A DNA stretch of 64,000 bases, from assembly GCF_023499255.1 (NCBI RefSeq), contig NZ_CP092183.1, positions 2,425,501 through 2,489,500 of the forward strand, read 5' to 3'. Positions 1,970-9,040 of the stretch are shown here, in pieces. The notes beneath the pieces were generated by a model. It searched no databases. It had not been told where the DNA came from and worked only from the letters and a program-made list of their open reading frames with translations. Made by a program: the position numbers and the translations under genes. The first letter of the stretch is position 1; every line of letters starts with the position of its first letter. The DNA is from Couchioplanes caeruleus. Lineage in GTDB: Bacteria; Actinomycetota; Actinomycetes; Mycobacteriales; Micromonosporaceae.

Positions 1970-2149
1970 ATGAATCTCTACCGACTGCTGGCACAGCAGC
2001 AGCACCAGCCACAAGCTCAACAATGTGACGCAGCGGCCGACACGCCAGGCCCTCACCCGCGGCCCCGTCCGTCAACGGGAGTGACTGCAACGATCGAAAC
2101 CACCGACGAAGGACGCTCCGGAGCGCTGTTGGGCTCCATCGCACCATGA
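1970..2149 (+). CDS. candidate ATP-grasp-modified RiPP precursor peptide 1
   Basis: A 59-residue peptide whose stop TGA overlaps the ATG of the ATP-grasp ligase (ATGA), so precursor and ligase are coupled. An AAGGA box lies 12 bases before ATG 1970. The N-terminus MNLYRLLAQ is followed by a Gln-rich and Pro-rich linker, then a C-terminal core: Thr36, Thr39, Thr41, I42-E43-T44, Asp46, Arg49 and L53-L54-G55-x-I57-A58. A second small gene at 3716 shares both ends (LYxxLAQ; 12 of the last 24 positions identical when aligned without gaps). Short leader, linker and a hydroxyl/carboxyl-rich core next to an ATP-grasp enzyme is the organisation of graspetides, where side-chain esters or amides join Thr/Ser/Lys to Asp/Glu. 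I see the homology and context directly; the modification is inference. A longer in-frame start (1907) exists but would not align with the second peptide. Confidence 0.75.
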   Translation: MNLYRLLAQQQHQPQAQQCDAAADTPGPHPRPRPSTGVTATIETTDEGRSGALLGSIAP

Positions 2150-3084
2150 CATCTACATCGCCGGTCATCCTCGTCGGGGACCGAACGGATCCACACATCC
2201 AGGCCGTCGCCGATCTGCTGCCCGCGCGAGGCACCGTGATCGTCGACGCCGCAACGTTGAGCGACGGTCTGGAAAGTGTCGAACCCAGCCGTACGGTGCT
2301 GGTCGACCAGACCGGCGGCACCGTCGACGTCGGTCCCGGCTGTCCTGCTCGTGGCTGGCTTCGCCGATTAGCGCCTGCCGGGTGGGACCATGGCACGGTT
2401 CTCGGCGGACATGACGCCGCGGTGTTGTCCGCGCGGCTGGTATTACTCGCTGCCCTGCTGCGCGATTCCGCATTGACCCTGGTGACGCCGGTGGATGAAT
2501 TGTTCGCCGCGGAGAACAAGCTGGTGCAATATCGCGCCGCCCGCGAGATTGGCGTTCGCTACCCGACCACTTTAGTCAGTGGCGACGTAGCCGACCTAGT
2601 GGAACGCCTCGATGAGCTGTTCGTCCTCAAGCCTCTAGGGCCCGGCAACTTCGAGGACGATCGCCGGCAGAACGTCGTCTACGTACGCCCGGTTTATGCC
2701 TCCGACGTGGCCGGGGCGGATTTGCTCGATGCGCCTTTCCTCGCTCAGCAGCTCATCCATGCGGAGGCGCACCTACGGGTCGTGACCGTCCATGACCGGG
2801 TGTGGGTGACGGAACTGGACGGTACCGGTGTGCCGGTCGACTGGCGTGAGCACGCACCCGCCCACCACAGCTTCCAGGTCTCCACCGCCTGGCCGGAGGT
2901 GGCGAACGCCGCCGGGCGATTGGCAGCTCACCTGCGCGTCGGGTTTAGCAGTCAGGACTGGGTGGTCGACGACGACGGCCCGGCATTCCTCGATCTGAAC
3001 CCCGGCGGTCAGTGGCTGTTCCTCCCCGACACCGTGACCACATCCGTTGCTCAAGCCCTCGCCGACTGGCTGGCAGACCGTTAG
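2146..3084 (+). CDS. ATP-grasp peptide ligase (MvdC/MvdD-like), candidate graspetide maturase
   Basis: A 312-residue ATP-grasp enzyme. Visible family features are the ENKLVQYRAAREIGVRYPTT segment near residues 123-142 (the conserved N-K-x-A-x-G-x-P-T pattern), the ATP-binding lysine in VLKPLGPGNF (Lys162), and the metal-binding end of the fold in FLDLNPGGQW (Asp283, Asn285), all present. The NPGGQWLF ending is typical of RimK-like enzymes that modify ribosomal peptides such as microviridin ligases; these form omega-ester or omega-amide bonds using ATP. The length matches single-domain MvdC/MvdD enzymes. It overlaps precursor 1 upstream (ATGA) and a membrane protein downstream (TAGTG), so it is part of a tight operon. 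The assignment as ligase is strong; the graspetide substrate is inferred from the two flanking homologous small peptides. Confidence 0.85.
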   Translation: MTSTSPVILVGDRTDPHIQAVADLLPARGTVIVDAATLSDGLESVEPSRTVLVDQTGGTVDVGPGCPARGWLRRLAPAGWDHGTVLGGHDAAVLSARLVLLAALLRDSALTLVTPVDELFAAENKLVQYRAAREIGVRYPTTLVSGDVADLVERLDELFVLKPLGPGNFEDDRRQNVVYVRPVYASDVAGADLLDAPFLAQQLIHAEAHLRVVTVHDRVWVTELDGTGVPVDWREHAPAHHSFQVSTAWPEVANAAGRLAAHLRVGFSSQDWVVDDDGPAFLDLNPGGQWLFLPDTVTTSVAQALADWLADR

Positions 3085-3818
3085 TGCACGTCGTCAGAGG
3101 CAGGTACGCCGAAGCACGCGTCTACGGCTGGTATGTGCTGGCGCTACTACGACCCGGCGTCGAAGTCCCCACGTTCGGTCAACCCGAGCCGTTCACCGCA
3201 GACATCGAACGGTTCACCCCCGACGACCTCAAGATCATCGTTGAAGAAGGCCGCCGACAGACCGATCGGCAGCTGGCCGACCTAGAAAAGAACCGGGCAC
3301 GGGCCGCCACGCTGCTGACCATCGGTCTCGCCGAACTCGCGGTCCTGGCAGCCAGCGCCGGCCGTGTCTTTCCCCTCGGTGTTCCCGTCCGGGTCGTCTG
3401 GGCCATCAGCGCTGTGCTCGTGGTGCTCACCATCGGCGGCGCCGCGTCGCTGCTCACCTCCCGCGCCGACTTCGGCCGCCTGGAAACACGACACCTCGCA
3501 GCAGGGCCGATGCCCGTGCTGCGGGAGGCAGCCCTCGGCTACGCGCACGCGGTGGGGCTGGGTGAGGAAACCGTCCGCACCCGTATTACCGTGCTTCGTG
3601 ACGGTGTGCTGCTCGCCGTCATGGCGGCGTTGTTGTACGCGGTAATCTGGCCGGTCGTCACGACAGCAAAGACACCAGGCACGGCCCCTCGTCCTTCACC
3701 GACCGGAGAAAACATATGTCGCGCGACCTGTATACCGTCCTCGCCCAGCCGGCCGAGCCCGACGACGACCGCAACCGGCGACCTCGCCCCGACAAGCGCG
3801 ACCCCCATACCGTCCTGA
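3084..3818 (+). CDS. membrane protein of the candidate graspetide operon
   Basis: GTG 3084 overlaps the stop of the ligase gene (TAGTG). The first ~70 residues are soluble and charged, ending in a helix rich in Glu/Arg/Gln; two membrane segments follow at about residues 74-94 and 100-120, and a third at about 175-195 (VLLAVMAALLYAVIWPVV). I do not recognise the family; a role in export, immunity or anchoring is only suggested by position. Odd point: after residue ~200 the reading frame continues as a Ser/Pro/Thr-rich tail that overlaps the second precursor gene by 103 bases in another frame. The tail looks like non-selected sequence, so the original stop may have been lost, or the overlap is genuine. 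Confidence 0.65.
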   Translation: MHVVRGRYAEARVYGWYVLALLRPGVEVPTFGQPEPFTADIERFTPDDLKIIVEEGRRQTDRQLADLEKNRARAATLLTIGLAELAVLAASAGRVFPLGVPVRVVWAISAVLVVLTIGGAASLLTSRADFGRLETRHLAAGPMPVLREAALGYAHAVGLGEETVRTRITVLRDGVLLAVMAALLYAVIWPVVTTAKTPGTAPRPSPTGENICRATCIPSSPSRPSPTTTATGDLAPTSATPIPS

Positions 3819-3883
3819 CCCATTCGATAGAGACGATCGACAACGACCGGGCGAGTTACCTGCTGGGCAACATCGCCATCTGA
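3716..3883 (+). CDS. candidate ATP-grasp-modified RiPP precursor peptide 2
   Basis: A 55-residue peptide with a clear GGAG box 7 bases before ATG 3716, lying at the end of the ATP-grasp operon. It begins MSRDLYTVLAQ and ends in a core with Thr32, Thr35, Ser37, I38-E39-T40, Asp42, Arg45 and L49-L50-G51-x-I53-A54; every one of these is matched at the same spacing in precursor 1 at 1970-2149 (Thr41 there replaces Ser37). The linker between is Asp/Arg/Pro-rich and not conserved, as expected of a RiPP spacer. It overlaps the 3' end of the membrane protein gene in a different frame, which explains why it is easily missed. The conserved LYxxLAQ block is a plausible ligase recognition leader. Chemistry and product are inferred. 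Confidence 0.72.
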   Translation: MSRDLYTVLAQPAEPDDDRNRRPRPDKRDPHTVLTHSIETIDNDRASYLLGNIAI

Positions 3884-3974: not shown

Positions 3975-4994
3975 TCATCTTCGGCGCGGTGGCCGCGGTG
4001 TCCTGATGGTGTCGGCGTCGGGCCATACACCGCCGGACACCCAGCCAGCGGCGACGGGAGCGACCTCGTCCACGAAGGGATTGGTCTTGCCGGTTGCTCG
4101 GGCGTCGGCCACGTGGCGCGAGCCACCGGCCACCCAGTCGGCGACCTGAAGCTGCGGAGTGCTCGCGCTGTCGGCGAAGGTGATTTCAGTAGCGGGAAGC
4201 GGTGGAAGCTTCAGCACCGGTGTGACCGCCGGCAGCGCTTCGATGGACAGCAGTGTCAGCGCGTGGCGGGCGATGGTGTTGGACTGATCGTGCACAAGGC
4301 GAAACGGACCGACCCGCTCGCCCACGTCGTAGCACAACTCCACAAGGCAGGGGATGGCCGGGTCGAGAACATCGGTGATCTTGGCTTCCGCGATGAGCTC
4401 AAAGACTTCATCGGCCTGCACCCGCGCGGCCTGCAGGATGCCGAGCTGGCCGCGAAGCTCCTCTACCGCCGTGCCACGGTAGGCCGCAATAGCGGCGAAA
4501 AGGTCATCGACGGTCGTCGGCTTGCTGGGGCGTAGTGCATCGACGAACGTCTGGAGCATCTGATCGAACGCTGCCGCGTCTCCCGCGACGGGTCCGACGT
4601 GAAAGAGAAGATTGGCCAGTCCTAGAGCGGAGCCGTCGGCGTACATGTCGTAGCCGTCGTCGTAGGCGAGCTCGACGGCGAGATAGTCCACCATCTTCGC
4701 GACGATCATGAATCGCTTGTGGGCAAGGTAGGTGCGGACGGATCCGTCCGGCAGCTGCGCGAAAGCTTCCAGGAGCGCCTGGCGTCCCGCCCCAGATTTA
4801 ACCAAAGCGCTGTACTTTGCCTCGCCGAAGTTGGCAGGCATGTGCGCGCGGACCGATGCCACGAGGGAAGCGGCCGCGGCAGAGTCCATGAGTACCGCGG
4901 CGGCTGCGAAGACCGGCTGGTCGAGATCGGTCAGATTTTCCCCTGAGTTGTTCGACTCATCGGCGTAGACGGTAGGAGGCACAGAGGAAGTCAC
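3975..4994 (-). CDS. DUF3800 domain-containing protein
   Basis: About 339 residues if translation starts at GTG 4994; the frame stays open to 5111 but the conserved domain begins just after 4994. The N-terminal YADESNNSGENL is the hallmark D-E-S motif of DUF3800, and near the C-terminus ITFADS followed by LQVADWVAGG gives the second acidic site; DUF3800 proteins are predicted to have an RNase H-like nuclease fold and are common in mobile and defence-type regions. It is convergent with the candidate RiPP operon, with 91 bases between the stops and no obvious terminator. Biochemical role unknown. Confidence 0.75.
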   Translation of the reverse strand: MTSSVPPTVYADESNNSGENLTDLDQPVFAAAAVLMDSAAAASLVASVRAHMPANFGEAKYSALVKSGAGRQALLEAFAQLPDGSVRTYLAHKRFMIVAKMVDYLAVELAYDDGYDMYADGSALGLANLLFHVGPVAGDAAAFDQMLQTFVDALRPSKPTTVDDLFAAIAAYRGTAVEELRGQLGILQAARVQADEVFELIAEAKITDVLDPAIPCLVELCYDVGERVGPFRLVHDQSNTIARHALTLLSIEALPAVTPVLKLPPLPATEITFADSASTPQLQVADWVAGGSRHVADARATGKTNPFVDEVAPVAAGWVSGGVWPDADTIRTPRPPRRR

Positions 4995-5274
4995 GGTGAC
5001 AGCCTGCCCGTGGTCTCGCTCGTTCGCACGTCGATCACCATGTTCGAGAACAGCGTCGCCGAAACTCGTCAGGAACCGGCACCGGCGAGTACGCCACTCG
5101 CCGCCGACCATTTGGACCCGACCGACGAGCTGGCTAGCACCTCCGACAGCTCAACCTGAACGCTTTACCGCAAGATTAGGTGTGCTGTTCACCTGCGCAA
5201 GGTCCTCGCCGATCCGGGTGAATTCGCTGTCCGGTATTTGACTTCGTGTTTCTCGCCGTTAAGGGTAGGGCGGG

Positions 5275-6181
5275 CCTTAAAAGCCCCTAACACGATCTGC
5301 TGAATCGAAGTTGATCAGCGTGACGAGGTGAAGATCAGTCTCGTTCGCCCGGTCGTGAGCAGGCGTGGGTCATCGATGACGAGTTGTGGGAGCTGATCGA
5401 GCCGCTGTTGCCGCCGTGGCCGGCGAAGGCGCCGGGGCCTCGGCCGGTGCCGGATCGGCAGTGCCTGCAGGGCATCTTGTTCGTGCTGCACACCGGGATC
5501 GGCTGGGAGGACCTGCCCCAGGAACTCGGGTTCGGTTCCGGGATGACCTGCTGGCGCCGGTTGCAGCGCTGGACCGAGGCCGGCGTGTTCGATCAGGTGC
5601 ACCAACTGCTGCTGGCGAGGCTGAACGCGGCCAACCGGATCGACTGGTCGAGAACGGCGATGGACGGTAGTCATATCGACGCGAAAAGGGGGTGCCGGGA
5701 CAGGTCCGTCGCCGGTCAACCGCGGCAAACCCGGCTCCAAGCACCACCTGATCTGCGACGGCAACGGCACCGCGATCTATGTGCTTACCAGCGGCGCAAA
5801 CGTGCCGGACATCAGCCGCGCCCTCGACCTGCTCGACGGCTACCCGCCGATCGCCGGCCGGCCGGGACGGGCCCGGCGCCGCTTCGCCACGCTGCTGGCC
5901 GACAAGGCCTACAGCAGCCGAGCGTTCCGGCAGGCCTGCCGCGAGCGCGGCACTCAACCGATCATTCCTACGCCCAAGACCACCGGCGTCAAGGGCCTCG
6001 GCGAGCTGCGCTACGTGGTCGAGCAGACCTTCGCCCTGCTCCATCAGTTCCGCCGCCTGGCCGTGCGCTGGGAACGCCGACTCGACATCCACGACGGCCT
6101 CGTCAGCCTGGCATGCGTTCTGATCTGCTGGCGCAGACTGATCAACTGGACCAAGCCGAGATCGTGTTAGGAGCTCTAAGG
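5275..6181 (+). mobile_element. IS5-family insertion sequence, ~907 bp
   Basis: The ends are imperfect inverted repeats: the left starts CCTTAAAAGCCCCTAACACG at 5275, and the right end read in reverse complement starts CCTTAGAGCTCCTAACACG, both followed by ATC. Between them lies one transposase in two frames. A short target duplication cannot be set with confidence. The right end lies only 34 bases before the first gene of module A and its outer edge falls about where a -35 element for the TATAAT at 6202 would be. Confidence 0.75.
5384..6170 (+). CDS. IS5-family transposase split between two frames
   Basis: The first part (from about 5384) gives ELIEPLLPPWPAKAPGP and runs to DGSHIDAKRG; the rest continues in the +1 frame from about 5692 (TGPSPVNRGKPGSKHHLIC, then LADKAYSSRAFR) to the stop at 6168-6170, which lies inside the right terminal repeat. 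The switch is at AAAAGGGGG (5684-5692), a slippery run of the kind used for programmed frameshifting in several IS5 subgroups, so the element could still be active; loss of two G residues is the alternative. The catalytic DDE-type acidic residues are spread over both parts. No convincing ATG/GTG start was found before 5384; the frame is open back to 5324. Confidence 0.75.
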
Positions 6182-6895: not shown

Positions 6896-7494
6896 CCCTG
6901 AAGGTGGATCCCGTCGGCCTCACCGCCGCCAAGTCACGGAAGCTGCAGACCGCCGTTACCGCTGTCGAGCACTGCCTGGGCCTGTGGCAGCCGTTCGTCG
7001 CCGCCGCAACGACTCATTCGCTGCGCATCACCGTTGGCGCCGTCGACAACCTCGAAGGTGACACCACACCGACGGTGAGCGCTCACCCCGACGCCGAACA
7101 GGGACACCTGCGCCTGCGGGTGCCGCACAGCCTTGTCGATGACCCGCCGAGCAGGCTCGCCGCCTGGATTCTCGACATCGTCGTCCCAGCGCTCGTAACC
7201 CATGCGGAGAACTACCCGCACGAGCAGCCGTCCGCGTTCTGGGCAAACGCAAGCTTAGGGCAGACACCCACTGAAGATCCGGGAAGCGGCATCCAGCTCG
7301 ACGACCTACTCGAGGGTGACGTCCTGCTGATCGCCCGCCACGACGGCACACTCGCCGACGCGAACGTCCGCCAACGCGTCCTCGACGATTACCTCTGCGA
7401 TCGACTGGAGACCCGCGGCTTCGCCGGACGGGATGGCGCCTTCACCACTGAGTCCGCGGTCTGCTTCACCCTGGAACTGCTCTACAGCGATTAG
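6871..7494 (+). CDS. module A gene 2, conserved protein of unknown function
   Basis: A 207-residue protein beginning inside the end of module A gene 1 (25-base overlap, different frame). It is homologous to the gene at 29915-30529: shared elements include GLTA near residue 17, TAV.TVEH.L.LW, AATTH, DAEQG, EPPSR/DPPSR followed by PALVTHAE, GDVLLIARHDGT and DYLC.RLE. The AEQGxLxxxVPxS and IVPALVTHAE segments give a mixed alpha/beta appearance; no catalytic motif or membrane segment is visible. No Shine-Dalgarno stands out, consistent with coupled translation from gene 1. The function is unknown; conservation of both genes and of their overlap implies they act together. Confidence 0.7.
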   Translation: MDDPDPIVTLKVDPVGLTAAKSRKLQTAVTAVEHCLGLWQPFVAAATTHSLRITVGAVDNLEGDTTPTVSAHPDAEQGHLRLRVPHSLVDDPPSRLAAWILDIVVPALVTHAENYPHEQPSAFWANASLGQTPTEDPGSGIQLDDLLEGDVLLIARHDGTLADANVRQRVLDDYLCDRLETRGFAGRDGAFTTESAVCFTLELLYSD

Positions 7495-8326
7495 CCCTCC
7501 GCCTAGCGGGTCGCATCGGCCGTCGAACGTCAACCACGGGTAGTGCTCACGGGCTTCCGCAACCGGCGTCAGCCCGGTCGGCGCACGGGCCAGGCCAATG
7601 CGCTCGGGAGGTTGTACGCGCACAGGTCGTGCCCCGCGGCTGCGTCTCCGCTCGACCGACAAATGCGGCGCGGCGTGGGCGATTCGGTCGACGGTGCCCA
7701 CCTGATGACACCGTCGATAGGCCGTACCGTTGTGCCTTACGGTCGAATGTCACAAGTCGTCAAGTTGCCGGCTCGGATCGCCGCCGTCGCGGGCACAGCC
7801 GCCGCCGCACGGAAATACCGGGGCTGTGCACTCACCTGTTCAACCGCAAGCGCCCGCTCAGAATGCTCCGGGTTTAGCGGTGATCGTCCCCGCAACGCTG
7901 TTTTCCGGCATACTCGGGCTGCCCCCCTCGTCGTCAACCGTGCCGGAACCGCGCGCCGCATGGGCCTGCCGACCCGACGGTACTGGCTGGCCTGGCCATC
8001 CCGCTAAGCGTGTGGTTACCTTTGGTCATCTACATCAACGTCTTTGCCCGTGATCCGAGCTGCTCCTGCTGAAGCCCGGACCACCCGCGGACGCCAGCCA
8101 GCCAGCCGCACTCTCATCAGCGTAAGACGTTCTGGTCAAGCGGTTGGCCGGGTGCCTCGTCCGTCGTTGGTCCCTGCATAGTCGTAATGGGGTTGGTCCC
8201 TGCAGCGCGTAACCGGGTTGATAGACGACGGGCGGGGCTGCCCTTGATGAGAGACGAGGTAACCGTGGGGTTCCTCAATGCCGTGTGGGGCTCGCCCCGA
8301 CCCTGCTTGACGGGCCGCCTGGGAGG
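7495..8326. other. stretch without a supported gene
   Basis: Short frames on both strands lack ribosome sites and plausible composition. A 13-base direct repeat GTTGGTCCCTGCA occurs twice at about 8167 and 8192, close to the 3' side of the IS110 remnant and perhaps part of its end. Nothing else is seen. Confidence 0.4.
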
Positions 8327-9040
8327 TCAGGCGGCCAGGGGCAGTGTCTCGGTTCGTGTGCCGTGGGTGGCGATGGCGGGATCCCATGCTCGGCCGGTCG
8401 TGATGATGGCGTGCAGCTGCCTCAAGATCGCCGCCGCGATGACGGCTTGGGCTTGGGTGACGGTGAGCTTGTTCTGCTCCCGGGTGGTGAGGTGGGTGAA
8501 CCGGGCGGCATAGACGGGATTTGCGCGTTGTGCGCCCCAGACGGTGCGCCATGCGGCCAGCCGCAGCCCGGGCCGGCCTTGACCGGTGAGTTTCGTGCGG
8601 CCGATGAAGGTGCCGGACATCTTCTCTCGTGGCGCCAGGCCGGCGTGTTTGACCAGTGCCCGAGCGCTGGCGAACCGGTGTGGGTCACCGGTCTCGGCCA
8701 GGATCGCTGCCGCGCCGATCGCCGACAGGCCGGGGATCGACGTGACGAGGTCGGTCAGCTGCAGCCGGTCCAGGATCGCCGTCATCCGCGCCTCGGTGCC
8801 GGTCATCCGGTGATGGGTGTCCAGCCAGTCGGTCAGCACCAAGCCGACACGTTCCAGGGCGCCGGGGCGGTGCGCGGTCACACCCGCCGGATCACTGAGC
8901 GCGGCGAACAGGGCTTGGACGATGCGCATGCAGGGCTTCTTGCGGCCGCGACGGATGATCTCCTTGCGCACCGCGGACTCCCACCGGGCTGGGCCCAGTC
9001 GTCGGGTCCGGGCAAGATCGCCGCCGTCGCGGTCGACCAC
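8327..9040 (-). pseudogene. IS110-family transposase remnant (C-terminal part)
   Basis: The reading frame encodes the C-terminal Transposase_20 region of IS110/IS116/IS902 transposases: SIPGLSAIGAAAILAETGDP, then FASARALVKHAGLAPRE and the conserved SGTFIGRTKLTGQGRPGLR, with the catalytic serine region retained. The N-terminal DEDD RuvC-like domain is missing; upstream sequence is out of frame and the left end of an IS21 element begins at about 9225, only 185 bases further on. It is therefore a dead remnant, probably interrupted by the IS21 insertion. No matching N-terminal half could be found on the far side of IS21. Confidence 0.75.

Follow-up and report, generated by a model that had tools for sequence, protein, structure and literature searches.

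What is made by two small genes that stand on either side of a single ATP-grasp ligase gene in the actinobacterium Couchioplanes caeruleus? The window, that is, the whole stretch of 64,000 nucleotides analysed here (contig NZ_CP092183.1, positions 2,425,501 to 2,489,500), contains an operon of four overlapping genes on the + strand, which encode a precursor peptide (preA), the ligase, a membrane protein and a second precursor peptide (preB) (Table 1). This cassette is probably an actinobacterial system for a graspetide-type (omega-ester) ribosomally synthesized and post-translationally modified peptide, the chemistry being deduced from the sequences, and it looks like an unnamed branch of the graspetides. 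The sequence features of this class are present: a ligase of the synthetase family, adjacent precursors composed of leader and core, and Thr, Ser or Lys donors placed before Asp or Glu acceptors. An earlier note on this DNA, made from the sequence alone, was right in kind as to the ligase type and the adjacent precursors, but it overlooked the membrane gene and went astray on the layout, on the generality of the C-terminal tail and on the novelty of the core motif.

The assignment of the ligase to the graspetide-synthetase type is upheld by family models, by a profile search of the PDB, which at an E value of 0.01 gave graspetide synthetases only, and by the predicted fold, which is nearest to the solved graspetide synthetases. 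Its best match in NCBIfam is TIGR04187 (TgmB). When 87 ligases were scored with a family profile, 23 family rows reached at least 260 bits and the 64 others at most 112 bits, and in a quick tree of the 23 family ligases and 26 others the two sets were separated by a branch with a Shimodaira–Hasegawa approximate likelihood ratio (SH-aLRT) support of 100 (no bootstrap). By these scores and this tree the ligase is assigned to a clade of its own.

The coordinates and sizes that the earlier note gave for the two small genes agree with the list of open reading frames (ORFs). Both peptides carry LYxxLAQ and share, as had been noticed, an ungapped C-terminal stretch of 24 residues with 12 identities; in 3000 residue shuffles of both peptides the best 24-residue match never reached 12 identities (highest, 10). 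The ratio of nonsynonymous to synonymous substitution (dN/dS) against one relative (genome G165) was 0.29 for preA, 0.23 for preB, 0.17 for the ligase and 0.20 for the membrane protein, and both precursors are under purifying selection. The preB core is an exact TxxTxxxExxDxD and the preA core ends in DE, not DxD. The tail Rx3LLGxIA does occur at the C-termini of preA and preB, but it is not general across the family. In the 8.4-Mb genome of the window, the precursor profile at E 0.01 matched preA and preB and no further copy, and one ligase match was found at E 0.001.

Table 1. Features of the cassette, with positions in the window
Feature	Position	Strand	Basis or remarks
preA, precursor peptide 1, 59 aa	1970..2149	+	ORF call, shuffle test, dN/dS, precursor profile
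preA leader motif LYRLLAQ (putative role)	1976..1996	+	sequence
preA core TGVTATIETTDE	2075..2110	+	candidate donors T36, T39 (T41); candidate acceptors E43, D46, E47; putative chemistry
ATP-grasp ligase, graspetide-synthetase type, 312 aa	2146..3084	+	family models, PDB profile, fold, tree
Membrane protein, 244 aa, GTG start; conserved ligase partner	3084..3818	+	comparison across loci, structure model
preB, precursor peptide 2, 55 aa	3716..3883	+	ORF call, dN/dS, precursor profile
preB leader motif LYTVLAQ (putative role)	3728..3748	+	sequence
preB core TVLTHSIETIDND	3809..3847	+	candidate donors T32, T35; candidate acceptors E39, D42, D44; putative chemistry

The genes are tightly packed. 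As the earlier note had stated, preA overlaps the ligase start, the two sharing ATGA as stop and start; the ligase stop and the GTG of the membrane gene have one base in common, and the last 103 nucleotides of the membrane gene are also covered by preB in another frame, an overlap of 103-127 nucleotides in the four relatives measured. The description of a ligase flanked by two precursors holds for the window's clade and, among the 25 loci examined, for that clade only; in other clades the precursors lie upstream of the ligase, often in tandem.

Do homologous precursors accompany related ligases elsewhere, as the earlier note proposed to check? They stand beside all of the 25 family ligases examined, which amount to 22 without near-copies (pairs L032/L036, L033/L035 and L028/L105): the number of such small ORFs per locus ranges from one to three, and they combine a leader of the LY type with a core [T/S]x(3,4)E[T/S]xD. 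A narrow pattern based on the two peptides of the window was enough to detect precursors at the Frankia, Microbacterium and Agromyces loci; the wider pattern was set after inspection of the loci, and it missed the precursors of L024, L031, L032/L036 and L037, which were found by reading the ORFs. At E 0.01 a check by profile, free of the core pattern, gave 44 ORFs, spread over 24 of the 25 loci, on the ligase strand and near the ligase, with no match away from the ligase in the same loci; all 44 fit [TS]x(3,4)E[TS]xD and 43 have L[YF]. The single miss at that threshold is L105, whose precursor is a near-copy of that of L028 (E 0.007). In 69 loci of non-family ligases the best match of the precursor profile had an E value of 0.35.

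The cores show a regular spacing. With the E of ET taken as position 0, 41 of the 43 distinct cores have T at -4 and the other two have it at -5; T, S or K is found at -6 to -8 in all of them, an acid at +4 or +5 in 40, and the exact TxxTxxxExxDxD in 20, preB included. This set omits L025 (Ser at -4) and one L027 match outside the core. A profile search of a protein set gave 93 precursor homologs, unnamed or annotated as hypothetical or uncharacterized, with the consensus PGTxxTA[ST][IV]ETIDNDRA; in 87 of them the core is preceded by L[YF]. One core is present in 85 and two or three in eight (P0150, P0151, P0152, P0153, P0158, P0177, P0187 and P0202), so that, together with the tandem precursors, both separate precursors and multi-core fusions occur in the family. 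Within the window's clade preB is found at nine of nine loci and preA at seven, and by this count preB is the steadier putative substrate. In Asanoa siamensis (L015:1-1071) all that lies upstream of the ligase is a stretch like the C-terminal end of preA, in which the T and ET core is missing; it is read as a decayed remnant of preA, and preB is intact there. No preA was seen at the Streptomyces ferrugineus locus (L106).

The co-occurrence was also followed at the level of genomes. Of 8000 candidates scored from a set of 5.8 billion proteins, 319 were ligase homologs at E 1e-3. Among 200 genomes of the window's own taxonomic family, Micromonosporaceae, the ligase was found at 1e-15 in 12: the window's genome and six others have a close match (57-100% identity), and five have a partial one (31-33%). 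The precursor profile, in apparently the same draw of 200 genomes, matched 10 at E 0.01. All seven genomes with a close ligase are among these; the others are G062 and two with weak matches in long ORFs (G066, 7.8e-4; G048, 0.008) that were treated as chance. With G062 counted as positive and G066 and G048 as negative, the precursor is present in 7 of 7 genomes with a close ligase and in 1 of 193 others (Fisher p 3.5e-12, a value that ignores relatedness). In G113, preB and most of the membrane gene are on another contig. At the G062 locus (L125, about 6959-7661) a preB-like ORF stands next to pieces of the membrane gene in two frames. This genome lacks a family ligase, and the highest-scoring match to the ligase in it (94.6 bits) lies elsewhere; the locus is apparently a decaying copy of the cassette.

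Wider scans found the ligase in 5 of 394 genomes at 1e-30 at the class level (one of the five, G370, with 109.6 bits, was left out of the family), and at 1e-50 in 2 of 392 Streptomyces genomes and 2 of 396 genomes of the phylum, the window's own included. A scan of named genomes kept 78 loci, 18 with at least 37% identity (L020-L037) and 60 with at most 35%. Family members come from Micromonosporaceae, Actinomadura, Streptomyces, Nocardioidaceae, Frankia and Microbacteriaceae, and further ones from actinobacterial metagenome-assembled genomes (Acidimicrobiaceae, Solirubrobacteraceae and others). Because Actinomadura is nested among Micromonosporaceae genomes and the occurrence is patchy, the distribution suggests spread of the cassette by horizontal transfer.

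The mechanism that we propose for the cassette is as follows. preA and preB would be two substrates of the single ligase, on which the LYxxLA leader would dock; a recognition tetrapeptide in graspimiditides, as described in PMC13003496, is a precedent for docking by a short leader. By the chemistry usual in the class, the ligase would activate acidic side chains by phosphorylation, at E(0) and D(+3) and also at +4 or +5 in cores with an acid there, and the upstream Thr residues at -7 and -4 would attack them to form about two macrolactones per core (expected change, -36 Da). The membrane protein would act as a dedicated partner in export or self-protection. No conserved protease or transporter gene was found among the neighbours of the cassette, so trimming, if any, would be carried out by host enzymes.

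Several points weigh against this scheme. The ligase has only 18-23% residue identity to the solved graspetide synthetases, and it misses the curated cut-offs of NCBIfam by far (for TIGR04187, 97.6 against 350 bits). Of the 17 rows of the precursor profile, 15 were taken from the very loci that it was then used to check and the other 2 represent the window. In the set of 43 cores, E(0), T/S(+1) and D(+3) were preset by the search pattern. In addition, only 9 of the 93 homologs contain Phhx(1,2)h, a leader motif that about half of graspetide precursors are reported to have.

The membrane protein deserves separate treatment. Its gene follows the ligase at 22 of the 25 loci, one of these being cut by a contig end; no copy was seen at the Frankia locus or at the two near-copy Streptomyces loci. 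Among ORFs of at least 90 residues within 6 kb of 23 loci, the same-strand clusters present in more than three loci, as judged from the first 22 clusters, were the ligase, the membrane protein and preB only; two large clusters on the opposite strand over the ligase and membrane genes look like mirror frames. The structure model has three long helices (predicted local distance difference test score, pLDDT, 85.5), which in our reading may be three transmembrane segments. There was no significant match in Pfam and no sequence match in the PDB, and comparison of the fold gave long-helix matches only, none of them clear. The window's protein has a tail rich in Pro, Ser and Thr, most of which is encoded by the overlap with preB; the membrane proteins of L024, L026, L027, L029, L030, L037 and L107, which have no preB downstream, lack such a tail, and at L031 and L033-L035, where there is also no preB, the tail is shorter. 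PADLOC models applied to 37 members gave weak and inconsistent matches to pore-type effectors of the CBASS and Pycsar kinds, "2TM effector" in 10 (best 5e-4) and PycTM in 3 (best 0.009), and none for the window's own protein; of ten members scanned singly, two had any match (E 0.03 and 0.2).

These data bear on an explanation that keeps the same ligase chemistry and differs in its purpose, namely that the modified peptides are ligands of the membrane protein in or at the producer's membrane, forming a self-contained effector or signalling system. The membrane gene is indeed the only other conserved partner, the cassette has neither a conserved protease nor a conserved transporter, and the PADLOC matches, weak as they are, point to effectors; nevertheless, the window's protein lacks any such match, the single scans are weak, the fold offers nothing beyond long helices, three loci do without the membrane gene, and the uncharacterised membrane proteins at thuringinin loci have been read as transporters, transport being the function suggested (Makarova 2022, PMC8939145). 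This explanation is judged unlikely, and the membrane protein most likely serves export or self-protection, a function favoured over that of an effector. A more specific version, in which ring-closed peptides open or close the membrane protein or are guarded by it, as an internal switch in mobile conflict or signalling and not as secreted protease inhibitors, must be called rather improbable.

Could the ligase instead attach an amino acid or another amine to the peptide, as in RimK- or PGM1-like conjugation, without ring closure? The C-terminal residues vary across the family while T, E and D inside the chain are conserved, the repetition of cores within a single peptide suits ring units, and the PDB profile search found graspetide synthetases only, all of which makes conjugation very improbable. 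That the small ORFs arise by chance or have nothing to do with the ligase might be thought of in high guanine + cytosine DNA, where 86 ORFs of at least 40 residues overlap the first 9 kb. This is already contradicted by the shuffle test, dN/dS, the 25 ligase loci, the 93 homologs and the co-occurrence in genomes, and its probability is negligible.

How is the putative ester-forming cassette related to known graspetides? The claim of the earlier note that the core fits no known motif does not stand as worded: 20 of the 43 cores, that of preB included, fit TxxTxxxExxDxD, which is probably the motif of thuringinin from Bacillus; the core spacing would then be alike. Thuringinin is trivalent, whereas most homologs here have one core, and it comes from Bacillus, whereas the present sample has Actinomycetota only. 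For plesiocin and PsnB, the pattern TTxxxxEE, as given in the earlier note, is not an invariant pattern of the present cores. The core motif strings were not found in the literature searched, which took in Carter 2026 without its supplement but neither Lee 2020 nor Ramesh 2021, although these surveys are the likeliest to cover the clade. Thuringinin is reported to have two esters per unit and repeated units (PMC12291112), and membrane proteins are reported beside its locus as well (PMC8939145).

The microviridin enzymes MdnB-MdnC (MvdC-MvdD) have the same fold and belong to the same family as the present ligase, but they work as a pair and here there is one; the ligase is below the curated cut-offs of the MvdC/MvdD models and falls outside their rows in the tree. 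The motif TxKxPSD, as given in PMC7823629, is absent from the 43 cores. A microviridin identity was rejected on the missing motif and the single ligase. TgmA/TgmB (TIGR04187) and the graspimiditides of Actinobacteria share the phylum of the cassette, but in the tree the branch separates a TgmB row from the family, and the conserved neighbours here do not include the methyltransferase that accompanies graspimiditides; membership of TgmB was rejected by score. There is a real chance that the clade is already within the Carter 2026 survey of 43 graspetide groups, with a group number. In that survey, groups 25, 31, 34, 38, 42 and 43 have partners that are domains of unknown function (DUF) or unmatched, and groups 29 and 37 are confined to Actinomycetota and often have a phosphotransferase (PMC13097080). 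Since the APH-type gene beside the window's cassette is unmatched at six other family loci, groups 29 and 37 are not favoured.

If the proposal is true, the graspetides gain a well-delimited actinobacterial clade, recognizable by its short LY leader, its fixed core and a membrane protein that is almost always present; no curated model among those scanned gives this clade a name at its cut-off. It would then be a clean set for studying one ligase with two paralogous substrates and the ring pattern TxxTxxxE[TS]xDxD, and it would show what a graspetide cassette does without a conserved protease or transporter. The precursor profile makes further copies easy to find.

Directly upstream of the cassette and on its strand are two mutually overlapping genes, for a histidine-phosphatase-superfamily protein (270-917) and an APH-type phosphotransferase (917-1807), and just downstream of preB is a DUF3800 gene on the minus strand (3975-5111); a search of six other family loci gave no match to any of these three. 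Further downstream are pieces of an IS4/5-type transposase (5384-6170; PF13340 at 5384-5767, PF01609 at 5781-6167) and of an IS110-type transposase (8327-9040; PF02371 at 8327-9037, minus strand). At the Streptomyces plasmid locus L105 (4171-8493), one of those without the membrane gene, an EcsC-family gene lies upstream, and a NACHT-like protein, just under the cut-off of Pfam, is encoded downstream on the other strand.
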